Positions 320-10,245 of a DNA stretch of 10,245 nt are shown here, in pieces (position 1 is the first letter of the stretch; each line of letters opens with the position of its first letter). Origin of the DNA: an uncultured Victivallales bacterium (GTDB lineage Bacteria > Verrucomicrobiota > Lentisphaeria > Oligosphaerales > JAFGRS01). The translations under genes were made by a program, and so were the position numbers. The stretch is taken from positions 1-10,245 of the forward strand of contig CAILKC010000455.1 in assembly GCA_903834675.1 (NCBI GenBank), in the 5' to 3' direction. The notes beneath the pieces are model-generated. The model ran no database searches. It worked only from the letters and a program-made list of their open reading frames with translations, and had not been told where the DNA came from.

Positions 320-2122
320 ATGTGGCAGCTTCTTGCAGGGGCATTCGCGGCAGGGTTATGCGTAGGTCCGGCGTGCGTCATGCACTGCGGGGTCCTGCAT
401 GTGGCTTACGTCGGGCGCTGCGCGGTAGCGAATCCTCGGCGAACGGTACGGCTGGGGTTCATGGTGCTGGCCGGTCGGCTGGCGGCCTACGTGCTGCTGG
501 GGGCGTGCATCGGCATGATCGCGGGGGCCGGGCTGCCGGTGCCGGCGCCCTGGCTGCTCAGCGCGGCCGCCGGGGTTCTCCTGATGGTGTACGCCGGGGT
601 GCCTGACCGACACCTGGGCGGCTGCCTTTGCCGTCGCCTGCCCTCCACCTTCTCCGGCGGCGCGCTGACGCTGGGCTTTCTGACCGGCCTGGCCCCCTGC
701 CCGCCGCTGCTGGCCTCGGGAGTCATCGCTCTGCAAACTCACGGCGTGCTGCCTGCTGTCCTCACCTTCGTCGCCTTCTTTGCCGGATCGTCGCTCTTCC
801 TGCTGCCGGCCGTATTCGGGGTCGCGGTCCTGCCGGCGCGTTGGCGCGCTGGCCTGCAACGCCGCAGCCGCTGGCTCGCGGCTGCGGTCGGCATGGTGAC
901 CATCACCCTGGCCGTCGGCCAGCTCCGGGGCGCCGCCGGAGACGAGGCGAGCCTCACGCCTCCGGCGAACGCCGCCGCCAGCCCGAACGCCGGGCCCGCC
1001 GGCGCGAGGCTGGTCCCCATGCCGCCGCCGGCCCCCAAGACTCTGAAGCCGCTCTACGCCAAACAGAAGCTCACCAGTCGGCTGTCTGAGGACATGGTCC
1101 GCAACCTCCAACTCTCCCTGCACGAGGCCAAGTACTACCGTCAGCTCTCGGGTGGCCGGGTGCAATGCCAGCTCTGCCCCCGTGGTTGCACGCTGGAAGA
1201 GGGTGAACGCGGCCTGTGCCGCATTCGGGCCAATATCGGTGGCACTCTGCGGGCGCTGACCTACGGCCTGCCGGTCAGCATCCATGCCGACCCCATCGAG
1301 AAAAAGCCACTCTACCACGTCCTCCCCGGCTCGACCGCGCTCTCCATCGCCACCGTGGGCTGCAACTCGGGCTGCGTGTTCTGCCAGAATTACGAGATCA
1401 GCCAGGCATCCCCCGAGGACGCGCCCCGTAAGCTCGTGCCCCCGGAGAAGCTCGTGGCCGCCGCCATTGAACGGGGCGACGCCGGCATCGCCTACACCTA
1501 CACCGAACCCACGGTCTACTTCGAGTACATGCTGGAAACCGCCACCCTGGCCAAGGCGAAGGGCCTGCGTAACTACTGGATCACCTGCGGCCAGATTCAG
1601 GAGAAACCCCTCCTCGAACTCTGCCAGGTCCTCGACGCTGCCAACGTCGACCTCAAGGGCTTCAGCGATGAGTTCTACGTGGAGTACTGCGACTTTCACC
1701 TGCAACCGGTCCTGCAAACGCTGCTGATCCTCAAGCGTGAGGGAGTTCACACCGAGATCACCAACCTGGTCATCCCCGGCGCCAATGACGACCCGGCCAT
1801 GGTGCGTGCCATGTGCCGCTGGATCAAGGCCGAGCTCGGGCCGGAGACGCCGCTGCACTTCAGCCGCTTCCACCCCGACTACAAGCTGACCCGCCGGCCG
1901 CCCACCCCGGCCGCCACGCTGGCACGCCTGCGCCGTATCGCCTTGGAAGAAGGCATGAAGTACGTCTATGTCGGCAACGTCGAGGTCGCGGGCGCCGCCG
2001 ATACCCCCTGCCCTGCCTGTGGTCGGCCCGCGGTCCGCCGCTCCGGCTTCCTGGTGACGGACAACCGCATCAAGGCCGGCAAGTGCCCGGATTGCGGTTC
2101 CCCCCTCGCCGGCATCTGGTGA
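320..2122 (+). CDS. amrS: Membrane (UreH/TauE/CcdA-like) domain fused to AmmeMemoRadiSam-type radical SAM enzyme
   Basis: 600 residues in two parts. Residues 1-204 form six likely membrane helices (about 3-29, 45-70, 76-93, 114-140, 143-172, 184-203) with Cys/His in helix 1 (C14, C19, H22, C23), a C-L-C pair in a loop (102, 104) and G-L-A-P-C-P-P in helix 4 (C127). This layout resembles the UreH-like/DsbD_2/TauE-SafE families, which move metals, thiol electrons or sulfur compounds. An Ala/Pro-rich linker (205-245) leads to a complete radical SAM protein: N-terminal Cys cluster (C283, C286, C290, C300), DPIEKKPL at 324-331, the [4Fe-4S] motif CxxxCxxC (C348, C352, C355), Y-T-E-P (394-397), NVDLKGF (442-448) and a C-terminal zinc-ribbon pair (C564/C567, C589/C592) ending G-I-W. 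The reaction of this family is not known; it normally accompanies Memo and AMMECR1, which are not in the window. The start is ATG 320 with only a weak upstream purine run. The radical SAM assignment is firm, the membrane-domain family moderate. The symbol names the radical SAM half only. No frameshift or stop separates the halves. Confidence 0.9.
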   Translation: MWQLLAGAFAAGLCVGPACVMHCGVLHVAYVGRCAVANPRRTVRLGFMVLAGRLAAYVLLGACIGMIAGAGLPVPAPWLLSAAAGVLLMVYAGVPDRHLGGCLCRRLPSTFSGGALTLGFLTGLAPCPPLLASGVIALQTHGVLPAVLTFVAFFAGSSLFLLPAVFGVAVLPARWRAGLQRRSRWLAAAVGMVTITLAVGQLRGAAGDEASLTPPANAAASPNAGPAGARLVPMPPPAPKTLKPLYAKQKLTSRLSEDMVRNLQLSLHEAKYYRQLSGGRVQCQLCPRGCTLEEGERGLCRIRANIGGTLRALTYGLPVSIHADPIEKKPLYHVLPGSTALSIATVGCNSGCVFCQNYEISQASPEDAPRKLVPPEKLVAAAIERGDAGIAYTYTEPTVYFEYMLETATLAKAKGLRNYWITCGQIQEKPLLELCQVLDAANVDLKGFSDEFYVEYCDFHLQPVLQTLLILKREGVHTEITNLVIPGANDDPAMVRAMCRWIKAELGPETPLHFSRFHPDYKLTRRPPTPAATLARLRRIALEEGMKYVYVGNVEVAGAADTPCPACGRPAVRRSGFLVTDNRIKAGKCPDCGSPLAGIW

Positions 2123-2128
2123 AACCCC

Positions 2129-3961
2129 ATGGACCTCGCTTACACCACCTATGATATCGTAGTCGTCGGCGGCGGCCATGCCGGCTGCGAGGCGGCCTTG
2201 GCGGCGGCCCGGCTCGGGGCGCGGACCTTGTTGCTGACCCTCAACCACGACCACCTCGCCCAGATGTCCTGCAACCCGGCCATCGGCGGCATCGCCAAAG
2301 GCCAGGTCGTCCGTGAGATTGACGCCCTCGGCGGCGAGATGGCGCTGAACACCGACGCTGCCTGCATCCAGTTCCGTATGCTCAACCGCTCCAAGGGCCC
2401 GGCTGTCCAGTCGCCCCGGGCCCAGTGCGACAAAGTGGTCTACCAGCGCCGCATGAAGCACGTCGTCGAGCGCTGTCCGGGGCTGTTTGTGCATCAGGCC
2501 CAGGCGGTCCGCTTCCAGACCGATGGCGAGCGCGTCACGGCGGTCGCTACCGAGTTCGGCGACCTCTTCCAGGCGCGCGCCTTCGTGGTGGCCACGGGGA
2601 CCTTCCTCGGCGCCACCCTGCACTATGGCCTGTCGTCCTTCCCGGGTGGCCGCGCCGGGGACCCGGCCGCGGCGGCCCTGGCCGAATCGTTCCGCTGCGA
2701 CCTCGCCCTCGAGACCGGCCGACTCAAGACCGGCACCCCGGTGCGGGTCCTCGGCCGCACCCTCGACCTCAGCTCCCTGGAACGCCAGGACCCCGACCCC
2801 GACCCGGTGGGCTTCGCCTTCCGCCCGGACCGCAGCGGCCTGCCCCGCCTCGGCGGCGCCAGCCTGCCCCAGCAGCCCTGCTACATGACCTACTCCACCG
2901 CGGCGACCGCACAGGCCGTACGCGACAACCTGGACCGCTCGCCGCTCTACTCGGGCCGTATCCAGGGCACCGGCGCCCGCTACTGCCCGTCCTTTGAAGA
3001 CAAAGTCGTGCGCTTTGCCGAGCGCGAACGCCACCAGATTTACCTCGAGCCGGAAGGCCACTTTACCGACGAGTACTACCTCAACGGCATCTCGACCAGC
3101 CTGCCGGTGGACGTGCAATGGCGCATGGTGCGCTCTCTTCCCGGCCTCGAACAGGCACACATTTCGCGCTATGCCTACGCCATCGAGTACGACCGGGTCC
3201 TGTCCCACCAACTCGATCGCTCCCTGGCCGTGCGCCGCTGGCCGAACCTCTTCCTGGCCGGCCAGATCAACGGCACCAGCGGCTATGAAGAAGCGGCTGG
3301 CCAGGGCTTGATCGCCGGCATCAACGCCGCCCGCGCCGCCGCCGGCCTCGCGTCGCCGCTCGTGCTGGGTCGGGACCAGGCCTACATCGGCGTCATGATC
3401 GACGACCTGGTCACCAAGGACATCGTCGAGCCCTACCGCCTCTTTACCAGCCGCGCGGAGTACCGCCTGCTCCTGCGCCAGGACAACGCCGACCTGCGCC
3501 TGCTGCGACTGGGGCATGAGATTGGCCTGATCGGGGCGCCGGACCTGGAGCGGCTAGAGGCCCTGGAGAAGGCGATTGCCGAGGGCAGAGCCTTCCTGAA
3601 AGCACAGCGCTCCCAGGGACGGTCCCTGTGGGAGATTCTGCGCACCCCTGGCAGCCGCTATGCCGACCTGCCCGGCGTGCCGACTTTGCCCGCCCGGGCC
3701 GTGGAACAACTGGAGATCGAAACGCATTACGAGGGCTACACCGAGCGCCAGGTGGCCCAGGCCGAGGGCCTGCACAAACTCGAGGCCTGGCGCATCCCCC
3801 CCGATTTCGATTACGCCATCAAGGGCCTGCGCACCGAGGCCCGCCTGAAACTCGAGAAACGCCGACCCCAGACCCTCGGCCAGGCGGCCCGCCTCGACGG
3901 CGTCACCCCCGCCGAAATCAGCCTTCTGCAAGTCCACCTCACCCGCCGCCGCCAGGCGTGA
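2129..3961 (+). CDS. mnmG: tRNA uridine-5-carboxymethylaminomethyl(34) synthesis enzyme MnmG (GidA)
   Basis: FAD-dependent cytoplasmic enzyme. With MnmE (not in the window) it installs the carboxymethylaminomethyl group on U34 of certain tRNAs, using methylenetetrahydrofolate. The 610 residues are close to the usual 620-630. Visible marks are the FAD-binding G-G-G-H-A-G-C-E (14-21), MSCNPAIGG (46-54) with C48, RLKTGTP (198-204), R-Y-C-P-S-F-E-D-K (284-292) with C286, the second FAD-region motif GTSGYEEAAGQGL (382-394), GVMIDDLVTK (421-430), and EPYRLFTSRAEYRLLLRQDN (434-453). C48 and C286 correspond to the two conserved cysteines of the family (C47 and C277 in E. coli). The C-terminus carries the helical MnmE- and tRNA-binding segment (FDYAIKGLRTEA, then LGQAARLDGVTPAEI). 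ATG 2129 lies 6 bases after the upstream stop, and GGTGA at 2118-2122 overlapping that stop may serve as ribosome site. The spacing suggests co-transcription and translational coupling. The frequent partner rsmG does not follow. Confidence 0.98.
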   Translation: MDLAYTTYDIVVVGGGHAGCEAALAAARLGARTLLLTLNHDHLAQMSCNPAIGGIAKGQVVREIDALGGEMALNTDAACIQFRMLNRSKGPAVQSPRAQCDKVVYQRRMKHVVERCPGLFVHQAQAVRFQTDGERVTAVATEFGDLFQARAFVVATGTFLGATLHYGLSSFPGGRAGDPAAAALAESFRCDLALETGRLKTGTPVRVLGRTLDLSSLERQDPDPDPVGFAFRPDRSGLPRLGGASLPQQPCYMTYSTAATAQAVRDNLDRSPLYSGRIQGTGARYCPSFEDKVVRFAERERHQIYLEPEGHFTDEYYLNGISTSLPVDVQWRMVRSLPGLEQAHISRYAYAIEYDRVLSHQLDRSLAVRRWPNLFLAGQINGTSGYEEAAGQGLIAGINAARAAAGLASPLVLGRDQAYIGVMIDDLVTKDIVEPYRLFTSRAEYRLLLRQDNADLRLLRLGHEIGLIGAPDLERLEALEKAIAEGRAFLKAQRSQGRSLWEILRTPGSRYADLPGVPTLPARAVEQLEIETHYEGYTERQVAQAEGLHKLEAWRIPPDFDYAIKGLRTEARLKLEKRRPQTLGQAARLDGVTPAEISLLQVHLTRRRQA

Positions 3962-4223: not shown

Positions 4224-7049
4224 TCATTCCGGGATCAGCCAGCCGAAGTCCGCCGAGTTGGCCGTGCCATAGCACAGGCGGCTGGTCTCGAACGGGTGCC
4301 GTTCGACCCAACTGTGCAGCAGAGCTCCCTCAGGAAAAGAGGCATTGCGTTCGAGGTCGAGACGCAACGGTCGCTCGGCGGGAATCTCGGCACGCAGACG
4401 CGCCAGCGGAATCCGCACCGTGGCCGACCAGCCCGTGGCCTCGCGCCGGGTCACCGCCGTCCACTCGGTGGGCTGCAAAGCATAGCCCTCGGAGCAGGCC
4501 TTGGTGCCATCGGCATTGAGCAGATACCACTGCTGCGGCCACAGCCGCCTGGGCTCGATGAGTAGCCGCACGCTTTCCGCCAACGGCGTCCCCATCGCCT
4601 CGCCCGTCGCCGGGCGCGTGCAACGTACCGCCACGTAGAGCGCCTCCTGGTCCATACACGCCTTCCAGAAAGTCCTGGCGGCCGGGACGGCAGCCCCCGA
4701 CTTCACCTCGAGCTCCGCCTCCGGCAAGTCCCGCCAGATCGGTCCCGCCACATCGCCGTCGATAGCTGGCCCGCAACTGACTCGTGGGCAACGCTGGACG
4801 CGGCCCTCGGGACGCACGCCGGTGTACTCCGGCCAGAGTACCTCACCCAGCCGAATCTGCCGGGCCAGGCGCGGAAACCCTTCAGCCAGGAGGCCTTGCA
4901 GTTGCTCCATCCGCCATTCAATCTTGGCGGGGAAGTACTTATAGCCCTCCGCCTCGGAGTGGAAACCGAGCCGCGAGTCGGCCTTCGCAAGCTCGAGCAG
5001 AGCGGCGTCCAGAACCAGCTCACGCTTGACCAGGCGCCGCATCCGGGCCAGTGACCGGCGCTGTTCGAGCGGCGGCTGCCAGGGCAATTCCTCGCGCCAC
5101 GCATAGAACTCCAGCATGTTAGCGCCACTCTCGAACTGGATACCGAGGGCGCTGGCGACGCCGATGTCCCGCACCCGCTCCGGGTTGCTGGCGTAGCGCG
5201 GCAGCAACCGTTTCAGGATCGCCACGCCGTGGTTCCAATCGTTGGCCATGGCACGGCACAGACCGCAGATTTCCGCAAACGTGTGGGTGTAGCCAAAGCA
5301 CTCGCCGATGCGGTCGCCGCTGGCCGGGAAGGGCTTGCAGGTGTGGTACGAAGCGAGTTCCCAGGAGGGTGAGATAGTGCGGTCCGCCGGCTCGAGGTGC
5401 AGGGGCCAAGTCGGCGCATCGTGCATCGGACCGTACCAGCCAAAGACGTGGTTGAGCGGAAAGTTGCTGTAGCCGCTCTGGAACAGCTTCCAGGCCCTGA
5501 CCACCCGCGGCGCGTCCTCGCCCCAGTCCCGGCGCGCCAGGCCCAGCAGAAAGGCGTCCTCCGTGGCCGGAAACGGCGCAAAGGCCAGCTCCCCGGCGGC
5601 CTGGTTCATCAGTCCCGGGTAGTTGCCGAAGTACCAGCACTGCATGACGCCACTGACGCCGAGTTCGTGCATGGTCTTGTACTTGCGGAACAGGTGCCCG
5701 GGCACCGGGACAAAGGGCGCGGTGGCGACCTCGTGACTGCACCCGACCTGGAGCTTGGCGAACATGCGGTTCCCGCTCCGGACTGCCGCTTGTGCGCAGT
5801 CCGCAAACAGCCGACTCGGGCCAATGAAGGACAGCCAGTAGTCGAAGATGCGAATCTTGCGCCCGCACTGCTCGCCGATGGCGGACGACTCGAAGTTGTG
5901 TTGCAGGATGACGCCCTTGGGCAGGCGTCCGGCGCTGGTCACGGTCATCTCGTCGCCCCAGGACCAGTACTGCCCATACGGCCAGGAAACCAACTCAGCG
6001 TCCGGGTTGGCCGCATGCATGCCGCGCTCCATCGCGGCAAGAGTGTCGTTGAGGACGTCGTAAGGCTCCCGGTCCTTGCAGCGCGGACAGGAGATGCCGC
6101 GCGGCGCTCCCGAGTAACAGTGCGAGCCCCCCTCGCCGATGCTGATGTTGATCAGACCCCCCAGATCGGGGATCGCACTGAACAGGTTACGCATCGCCTC
6201 CTCGAGATAGGCCTGCGCCGTGGGATTGCTGGTACAGAAGAAGTGCCGATTGCCCCAGCCCATGCGCTGGCCGAGCAGTTCCGGGTGAGCCAGCCCAACC
6301 GGGCTGTCTGCCATGATCGGAATGGGCTCGTTGGCGAACACGTATACCTTGATGCCGTAGCGCGCACACCGTTCGGCCGTGCTCCGCAACTTATTGAGAC
6401 GCACCGAGGGGTCGCGGCTGTACTCGGGAAGCACCGTCTGCGGACAGATCTCGGCGAAGTGAATGGTGAGCCACAGCCCGTTGATCCCCTCGTGCGCCAG
6501 GCGGTTGAGGTACTCGTCCGGGTAGTAGTTGACGTCGTCGGTCAGCTCGTCACGGTTCTTCGGCGGGCGGTGTATCGGGCCGAAAAAGCAACGCGTGATC
6601 CGGGTGCGAATGACCGGCTGCCTGGCCGTGACGCCAAGGCTCAGGAAGGGCCCGCACGCCCGCCGGATCTCGTCTTCCAGGAAGAAGATGCCGCGCCGAA
6701 TGCCTTCCGTGTCGGCAGCCAGGATCTCGCACTGGTCCTTGCCGACGACCACCTGGTAGGCCTCACGCCCCGCCGTGGGGACGCAGCGCGTGCGGATCCG
6801 GTACGTTCCGGCCAGTGGGATCGCCGCCGCCGCCAGAAATTGGTTCAGATCGTCATAGGCGGTGTCGAGTCGACCACGCTCATCGCAAAACCCCGGCTCG
6901 ACCAACACCCCGCCCGCCAGCGAGACCTCACCCCGACGCGCAGGGCGCGCTTTCCAGTCAAACGGTTGCCACAAAGGGCGCTGCAACTCGTTGACGAAGT
7001 GCCATGACGATTCCGGCGGCTGGAGGGGTTCGGGACGTAGTTGAGACAT
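4224..7049 (-). CDS. GH20-like TIM-barrel protein with C-terminal CBM9-like domain, putative glycoside hydrolase
   Basis: 941 residues from ATG 7049, chosen because GGAAGG lies 6 bases upstream; an in-frame ATG at 7112 would add 21 residues without a ribosome site. Residues about 60-140 look like the alpha/beta domain found before GH20/GH67/GH84 barrels (ending in EGIRRGIFFLEDE). A TIM-barrel-like region follows (about 145-490: EGINGLWLTIHF, RYGIKVYVFANEP, INISIGEGGS). E306 in S-I-G-E-G-G sits where GH20 enzymes carry their acid residue and is a candidate catalytic residue, by analogy only. C321-P-R-C324 with C311 may bind metal. A helical region (about 510-745) contains DSRLGFHSEAEGYKYF. Residues about 760-941 resemble a CBM9-like domain (AIDGDVAGPIW at 762-772). 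No signal peptide or membrane segment is visible, so it is probably cytoplasmic. The substrate is unknown; beta-hexosaminide or uronide cleavage are options. It is divergent from the esterase/fucosidase pair. Confidence 0.85.
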   Translation of the reverse strand: MSQLRPEPLQPPESSWHFVNELQRPLWQPFDWKARPARRGEVSLAGGVLVEPGFCDERGRLDTAYDDLNQFLAAAAIPLAGTYRIRTRCVPTAGREAYQVVVGKDQCEILAADTEGIRRGIFFLEDEIRRACGPFLSLGVTARQPVIRTRITRCFFGPIHRPPKNRDELTDDVNYYPDEYLNRLAHEGINGLWLTIHFAEICPQTVLPEYSRDPSVRLNKLRSTAERCARYGIKVYVFANEPIPIMADSPVGLAHPELLGQRMGWGNRHFFCTSNPTAQAYLEEAMRNLFSAIPDLGGLINISIGEGGSHCYSGAPRGISCPRCKDREPYDVLNDTLAAMERGMHAANPDAELVSWPYGQYWSWGDEMTVTSAGRLPKGVILQHNFESSAIGEQCGRKIRIFDYWLSFIGPSRLFADCAQAAVRSGNRMFAKLQVGCSHEVATAPFVPVPGHLFRKYKTMHELGVSGVMQCWYFGNYPGLMNQAAGELAFAPFPATEDAFLLGLARRDWGEDAPRVVRAWKLFQSGYSNFPLNHVFGWYGPMHDAPTWPLHLEPADRTISPSWELASYHTCKPFPASGDRIGECFGYTHTFAEICGLCRAMANDWNHGVAILKRLLPRYASNPERVRDIGVASALGIQFESGANMLEFYAWREELPWQPPLEQRRSLARMRRLVKRELVLDAALLELAKADSRLGFHSEAEGYKYFPAKIEWRMEQLQGLLAEGFPRLARQIRLGEVLWPEYTGVRPEGRVQRCPRVSCGPAIDGDVAGPIWRDLPEAELEVKSGAAVPAARTFWKACMDQEALYVAVRCTRPATGEAMGTPLAESVRLLIEPRRLWPQQWYLLNADGTKACSEGYALQPTEWTAVTRREATGWSATVRIPLARLRAEIPAERPLRLDLERNASFPEGALLHSWVERHPFETSRLCYGTANSADFGWLIPE

Positions 7050-7055
7050 ACTTCG

Positions 7056-7061
7056 CCTTCC
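7056..7061 (-). promoter_or_regulatory. Ribosome binding site fixing the start of the GH20-like gene
   Basis: Read on the - strand this is GGAAGG, six bases before ATG 7049. The longer in-frame ATG at 7112 lies inside the ACTATA motif region and has no such site, so 7049 is preferred. Confidence 0.7.
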
Positions 7062-7111
7062 CAGTTGGGTCCGGTTACCGAGATTGAACCACGGTCGTCC
7101 GCGTGCCGGCA

Positions 7112-7130
7112 ACTATACTCCCACTATAGT
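7112..7130. promoter_or_regulatory. ACTATA repeat: candidate operator and/or divergent -10 boxes
   Basis: ACTATA (7112-7117) is inverted as TATAGT (7125-7130) with a 7-base spacer. The same hexamer also occurs directly, at 7112 and 7123, 11 bases apart (about one helical turn). TATACT (7114-7119) and TATAGT (7125-7130) match the -10 consensus TATAAT at five of six bases on the + strand, and ACTATA read on the - strand gives TATAGT. It could be overlapping promoters, a regulator site, or both. Confidence 0.5.
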
Positions 7131-9909: not shown

Positions 9910-9946
9910 TCTTGCCACGCGCACTCCAAATAAGCAGCGCCGCCGG

Positions 9947-10065
9947 CTGGACCGAGCGCCGTCAGGCGATCTTTGGACTGCGGCGGCTTGACGCCGCTTT
10001 CCAAGGGCGCGGTGCGCCCAGCCGCCGCCGCCAGGGCGGCGGTGGCCGCGAGCCGCGGCCGCTCC
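9947..10065. repeat. 119 bp hairpin-rich direct repeat, copy 1 (180 bp period)
   Basis: Identical over 119 bases to 10127-10245. Three stem-loops follow one another. The first has TTGGA (9973-9977) with TCCAA (10000-10004) enclosing GCGGCG (9980-9985) with CGCCGC (9992-9997). The second is GGGCGC (10005-10010) with GCGCCC (10014-10019). The third is GC-rich, 10021-10046. The copy ends in CCGCGG and GCGGCCGC palindromes. The 86 bases before it (9861-9946) hold only the hairpin at 9893. No gene is supported in 9861-10245; the long - strand frame across it is a translation of the repeat. Confidence 0.9.
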
Positions 10066-10088
10066 ATGCTCCGGGACCGCCGACCGTC

Positions 10089-10113
10089 GGGGCGGCGGTG
10101 GCCGCGCCGCCCC
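10089..10113. repeat. Hairpin in the spacer between the two 119 bp copies
   Basis: GGGGCGGC (10089-10096) pairs with GCCGCCCC (10106-10113) around nine bases. CGTCGG (10085-10090) can alternatively pair with CCGACG (10120-10125). It lies in the 61-base segment (10066-10126) that completes the 180 bp period, so each period would carry a fourth stem-loop. Confidence 0.6.
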
Positions 10114-10126
10114 GGCCTGCCGACGT

Positions 10127-10245
10127 CTGGACCGAGCGCCGTCAGGCGATCTTTGGACTGCGGCGGCTTGACGCCGCTTTCCAAGGGCGCGGTGCGCCCA
10201 GCCGCCGCCGCCAGGGCGGCGGTGGCCGCGAGCCGCGGCCGCTCC
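10127..10245. repeat. 119 bp hairpin-rich direct repeat, copy 2, cut by the window end
   Basis: Base-for-base the same as 9947-10065, offset by exactly 180. The match runs up to the last base of the window, so the identity, and possibly further copies, continue beyond it. The lack of any mismatch indicates recent duplication or ongoing homogenisation. Confidence 0.9.

Follow-up and report, generated by a model that had tools for sequence, protein, structure and literature searches.

Background

The conservation of Memo and AMMECR1 extends to humans, and the PCAD-Memo superfamily is reportedly the subject of a 2019 paper by Burroughs and colleagues (cited in PMC7159879). The radical SAM (rSAM) enzyme of the AmmeMemoRadiSam system is described by the NCBIfam family TIGR04337. 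Radical SAM chemistry is unexpected outside the cytoplasm; the pyruvate formate-lyase activating enzyme, for example, is cytoplasmic and carries no membrane domain. No paper on exported AmmeMemoRadiSam enzymes was found among the listed matches of a literature search. The closest described membrane systems are the CcdA/DsbD-like proteins, including the Pfam family DsbD_2 (PF13386), and the DsbD and NapH-like flavinylation-linked electron transfer systems, in which a membrane carrier is combined with FMN-binding and 4Fe-4S domains (PMC8238504), an arrangement that we also find in four relatives of the locus described here (L310, L311, L313, L314). Where that survey defines its DsbD system it does so by PF02683 rather than PF13386, and its main text contains no AMMECR1, Memo or S-adenosyl (PMC8238504).

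The locus lies in a stretch of 10,245 nucleotides (the window; positions 1 to 10,245 of contig CAILKC010000455.1, assembly GCA_903834675.1) from an uncultured Victivallales bacterium. It joins a full-length AmmeMemoRadiSam enzyme to a DsbD_2 membrane domain in one chain.

Results

The fused gene is a single unbroken frame on the forward strand (320-2122; ATG at 320, stop ending at 2122), as originally predicted, and its two parts are both recognizable: residues 8-192 match DsbD_2 (49.0 bits, gathering cut-off 24.9) and residues 270-599 match TIGR04337 (369.1 bits, curated cut-off 220), a complete rSAM enzyme. It shares with other TIGR04337 enzymes the CX3CX2C motif, the N-terminal four-Cys motif and the C-terminal Cys pairs, and differs from them in its N-terminal six-helix domain and predicted extracytoplasmic place. 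It is unlike the pyruvate formate-lyase activating enzyme, scoring 39 bits against a PFLA cut-off of 231.75. The membrane domain resembles other DsbD_2 (PF13386) membrane proteins in its six helices, its cysteines in helices 1 and 4 and its PCPP kink. The features are:

320..2122, + strand: gene fusion of a DsbD_2 membrane domain with an AmmeMemoRadiSam radical SAM enzyme, 600 aa (open frame; TIGR04337 and PF13386 matches)
323..940, + strand: DsbD_2 membrane domain with six helices, residues 2-207, N-out/C-out by prediction (PF13386, AlphaFold2 helices, K/R pattern)
374..388, + strand: helix 1 motif C19-x3-C23 (alignments of fusions; kept in 19 of 19 rows)
698..700, + strand: invariant C127, at the PCPP kink in helix 4 (alignments)
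941..1105, + strand: Pro/Ala-rich linker, residues 208-262 (alignment; low pLDDT at 207-227)
1127..2116, + strand: radical SAM enzyme, TIGR04337, residues 270-599 (369.1 bits)
1166..1219, + strand: N-terminal four-Cys motif C283, C286, C290, C300, invariant (alignments)
1361..1384, + strand: CX3CX2C cluster motif C348, C352, C355 (invariant across 65 aligned rows)
2009..2095, + strand: zinc-ribbon-like C-terminal Cys pairs C564, C567, C589, C592 (invariant in the 27-row alignment)
2129..3961, + strand: mnmG (gidA), the next gene downstream (711.9 bits; not assigned to the system)

Among the fusions C23 is invariant and C19 nearly so (P0024 lacks its N-terminal end). A stretch similar to the linker, judged by eye, also precedes the enzyme in single-anchor relatives. 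A Pfam scan detected no FMN_bind domain in the window protein or in the four other window genes scanned, and no Fer4 domain in the window protein, in which respect it is unlike the flavinylation-linked systems.

Several other features of the window may be recorded. mnmG also follows the fused gene in relatives L088 and L089. Tandem repeats lie at both window ends: at 1-218 the period is 92 and the copy number 2.4, while at 9939-10245 a 127-nt unit is present twice at 180-nt spacing. A gene for a 962-aa protein (4224-7112, minus strand), for which neither Pfam nor NCBIfam gave a match at E 1e-3, adjoins glucuronyl-esterase-like and alpha-L-fucosidase genes, and together these are perhaps a small carbohydrate-degradation cluster.

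The same pair of domains (PF13386 with PF04055) occurs in 28 of the best 120 homologues listed, out of 5021 found in all; P0002 among them is the window protein itself, begun at a later start, leaving 27 others. Two further fusions (P0242 and P0243) were found with the divergent P0074 as query, and three fused loci (L001-L003) lie in named genome records, the nearest being L001 from an uncultured Victivallales bacterium at 83% identity. The alternative first considered, an assembly or chance joining, is not borne out in the face of at least 27 other proteins of the same architecture, and on this evidence the domain fusion is no assembly accident. A tree built from 107 rSAM domains (quick method, midpoint root) groups 21 of 22 fusions into one supported clade, which lies among proteins with a single anchor or a Sec signal. 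The fusion P0074 branches apart from that clade, and the fusion event therefore probably happened at least twice.

AlphaFold2, run with the 65-row alignment (mean pLDDT 89.9), placed helices at residues 2-33, 39-70, 77-93, 110-124 with 128-138, 143-170 and 173-207, which agrees with the six membrane helices originally predicted. Residues 143-170 form a single helix, and an escape from the predicted topology by reading 143-172 as two helices is thus not supported. Lysine and arginine occupy the loops after helices 1, 3 and 5 (loops 1-2, 3-4 and 5-6) in 27/27 aligned fusions, extending across the group what had been noticed in the window protein alone, and the pattern recurs in 19/19 rows that include stand-alone DsbD_2 modules and second-origin fusions. 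(Alignment A1 leaves out P0002, P0007, P0009 and P0015, which have truncated N-terminal ends.) By the positive-inside rule, six helices with this charge pattern lead to an N-out/C-out prediction, the arrangement proposed at the outset, and both ends of the window protein should therefore face outside. Independent support for an outward C-terminal end comes from four planctomycete proteins in which the same membrane module is followed by an FMN-binding domain and then a Fer4_5 domain, since flavinylated FMN-binding proteins are described as extracytosolic in a 2021 eLife survey (PMC8238504).

Export signals are widespread among relatives that lack the fused domain. By a fixed rule, an N-terminal hydrophobic segment is present in 81/90 stand-alone relatives (P0031-P0121 without P0074), compared with 0/49 activase-type controls. 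The top-scoring TIGR04337 enzymes are unlike these relatives, with 28 of 29 loci lacking an export signal by the same rule (L123-L152; 30 loci taken, one without a usable start), and the one flagged, L146, has a doubtful upstream frame. The part preceding the segment has the more positive net charge, as expected for N-in, in 59/81, an equal one in 8 and a less positive one in 14, so that the orientation of the anchor is unsupported by net charge in 22/81 single-segment relatives; a plain K/R count around the segments gave no decision. Some relatives carry Sec signals of cleavable look. The twin-arginine signals that the original prediction mentioned for some relatives are also present as sequence motifs: Tat or Tat-like motifs precede the enzyme in Armatimonadetes (L007) and Terriglobia (L008), as does a Tat-like motif with KR for RR in Bacteroidetes (L009, L013), and Tat or Tat-like motifs occur in further verrucomicrobial and planctomycete genomes. 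Export is well supported by this body of sequence evidence, and of the two branches that the original prediction left standing, a misread topology or an enzyme active on the far side of the membrane from the cytoplasm, it is the second and bolder that has the better support.

The predicted partner appears to be exported as well. In 3/3 genomes of the named fused loci, Memo is fused to an AMMECR1-like part (judged from frames) and bears a signal peptide, as does Memo-AMMECR1 in G141; two of the three also encode an unsignalled rSAM and an unsignalled Memo. Thirty further genomes were followed, chosen mainly for having at least two listed rSAMs (with rSAM matches above the cut-off read), with Memo export classes assigned by eye and the second Memo of G188 left out. 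Nineteen of them have an exported rSAM, 16 of these 19 with an exported Memo; only unsignalled Memo was seen in G142 and G212, and none in G283. Exported Memo is likewise present in 10 of the 11 followed genomes where no rSAM that was read has a signal (six of these genomes have it close to an unsignalled rSAM on one contig), and Prevotella L011/L108 offers the same combination; export of Memo therefore needs no exported rSAM. Among the 120 matches listed out of 6115, an N-terminal hydrophobic segment is present in 60/80 two-domain Memo-AMMECR1 proteins. Of the same 120, 38 carry rSAM, AMMECR1 and Memo in one chain, 24 of the 38 starting with a hydrophobic segment. Such triple fusions are the cleanest case for a predicted shared export, as both partners are in one chain. 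The database start of P0122 lies downstream of a longer frame, read in L333, that has the hydrophobic segment.

Two side observations concern these partners. A second class of rSAM (L262, L228, L181, L224, L226, L232) lacks any N-terminal extension, starts at the first Cys motif and has genes for exported Memo-AMMECR1 nearby on its contig: might this be a cytoplasmic enzyme with an exported partner? In L083 and L086 the Memo part of an exported Memo-AMMECR1 gives just a partial match (56.7 and 54.4 bits) and has by eye apparently lost its PHAG motif, and this Memo is possibly non-catalytic.

With a profile of the membrane domain, a separate six-helix DsbD_2 gene was found beside rSAMs of the single-anchor or Sec type. 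It is the immediate upstream neighbour in L254-L257, lies two genes away on the upstream side in L249 and L251, and precedes the rSAM by about 5 kb in L059. Counting loci that had not been selected for this feature, the module is nearby in 7/12 Sec/anchor loci (L249, L251, L254-L258, L321, L322, L339, L059, L004) versus 0/39 Tat loci (L243-L248, L250, L252, L253, L260, L261, L319, L320, L323, L324, L325, L327, L330-L332, L334-L338, L340-L349, L007, L008, L009, L013; Fisher p = 7e-6), where export classes were assigned by eye, L321 was placed in the Sec/anchor group although its Sec signal is unsure and several Tat loci have KR or RK for RR. With close kin among the 12 (L254-L257; L249 with L251) counted once the figure is 3/8 (p = 0.003), kinship among the 39 Tat loci being unreduced. 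Five of the 12 have no DsbD_2 nearby; the loci range from about 5 to 21 kb, and a partner farther off or past a contig end would therefore be missed. Cytoplasmic-type loci gave 0/23 (L010-L012, L014-L027, L029, L030, L262, L326, L328, L329; L025 is cut at its N-terminal end). One further search used a profile built from loci that it re-found, so that only its other rows are independent, and part of the planctomycete loci were chosen from listed rows, mostly with an open frame of about 380-440 aa.

Three loci fetched for their DsbD_2 matches (L310, L311, L312) were left out of both counts. In L310 and L311, which represent a second phylum, a DsbD_2/FMN_bind/Fer4_5 gene directly precedes an anchored rSAM with Memo alongside. 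L312 is a partial exception to the pattern of Tat loci without the module: a Tat rSAM and Memo are followed, farther on, by a polyferredoxin and DsbD_2, the latter 5 kb from the rSAM. The three-domain protein is also present in L313 and L314, with no rSAM in the fetched stretch of either. Across 13 planctomycete genomes with a DsbD_2 match, an rSAM lies in the fetched stretch of three (G328, G536, G378), coverage for four of the 13 being limited to loci of some 3.6 kb. Two high-scoring DsbD_2 copies, G067:C120 and G240:C120, are on contigs without a listed rSAM. A polyferredoxin-like membrane protein is encoded directly upstream of DsbD_2 in L249 and L251, with Fer4_5 and Fer4 domains by Pfam in L251. 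Cys19, Cys23 and Cys127 are kept in 19/19 rows of the subfamily, fused and stand-alone.

Between DsbD_2 and the anchored rSAM, L249 (5724-7868, 36.5 bits) and L251 (3463-5733, 25.1 bits) encode a membrane protein with a Spermine_synth domain. The aminopropyl donor of the Spermine_synth family is derived from SAM, and a link of this protein to SAM supply is speculation. Separately, other DsbD_2 proteins (L315, L316, L318) have, by eye, a heavy-metal-associated-looking N-terminal domain, along with a CWMGM motif in their C-terminal domain.

Discussion

We hypothesize, with a probability of roughly 0.6, that these genes belong to an extracytoplasmic AmmeMemoRadiSam system in which Sec-exported enzymes need a transmembrane supply of reductant, the window protein being the fused form. 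The six-helix DsbD_2 domain, with both ends predicted outside, would place the rSAM domain outside, where it would meet an exported Memo-AMMECR1 of the kind whose export signals are seen in relatives. DsbD_2 would most likely be more than an anchor: C19 and C23 of helix 1, with C127 of helix 4, may pass reducing equivalents outwards by thiol exchange, and these could keep the cluster cysteines reduced for iron-sulphur assembly outside, or feed the cluster itself. Thiol potentials are generally too high to reduce a radical SAM cluster, which counts against this reading. Tat exports folded proteins (PMC10924467), and a Tat-borne rSAM can therefore carry its cluster; such relatives would bring the cluster along, with no module next door. 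Sec-exported relatives, crossing unfolded, would have to acquire or keep their cluster outside, and it is here that DsbD_2 is often fused or adjacent. We infer that the module, which certain genomes connect to FMN and 4Fe-4S relays, offers the most economical supply of reductant.

The strongest competitor, though an unlikely one, accepts an rSAM outside and makes DsbD_2 a metal carrier that provides the cluster, or Memo, with iron or copper. UreH/SafE-like relatives of the domain are metal carriers and Memo is a metal protein; the conserved helix 1 Cys pair together with C127 would suit a soft metal, and the heavy-metal-associated-looking domain of L315, L316 and L318 points the same way. Within the subfamily found beside rSAMs, however, the fused or adjacent domains, where seen, are FMN-binding and 4Fe-4S domains, not metal chaperones.

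We consider it improbable that DsbD_2 is a mere anchor in place of a single helix, with no catalytic link. The position of the fusions among single-anchor proteins in the rSAM tree and the 5/12 Sec/anchor loci without the module nearby fit such a role, but the cysteines are kept in 19/19 rows, and the module also occurs as a separate gene beside rSAMs that are already anchored.

A wrong topology, with the rSAM domain cytoplasmic and the hydrophobic N-termini acting as reverse anchors, would suit the cytoplasmic location of SAM, cluster assembly and low-potential electrons, the opposite charge balance of 14/81 segments and the unsignalled rSAMs beside exported Memo, but is similarly improbable given the Tat and cleavable-looking Sec signals of relatives, the triple fusions with N-terminal hydrophobic segments, the K/R odd-loop pattern in 27/27 fusions and the FMN-binding domain on the same C-terminal end in relatives.

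Returning to an extracytoplasmic system with its own reductant supply, it is tempting to widen the scheme: bacteria may run rSAM chemistry outside by two routes, a Tat route that carries the cluster along and a Sec/anchor route with a DsbD_2 electron or thiol conduit, FMN/4Fe-4S relays being optional, and the window protein would then be conduit and enzyme in one chain. This wider form is tentative, and we put it at a little short of even odds. Radical SAM chemistry outside would mean that SAM is present outside, and so implies an exit route for SAM; no SAM exporter was identified, which counts against an extracytoplasmic rSAM.

Conclusions

What is new here, at the level of sequence, is the fused architecture, the two export routes and the candidate reductant partner. 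If true, the proposal would overturn the view that radical SAM enzymes work only in the cytoplasm, and the source of the SAM would become a question to answer. It would also make the reductant pathway directly testable, and if the system does work outside with its own electron supply, the candidate substrates of AmmeMemoRadiSam would narrow to molecules of the envelope.
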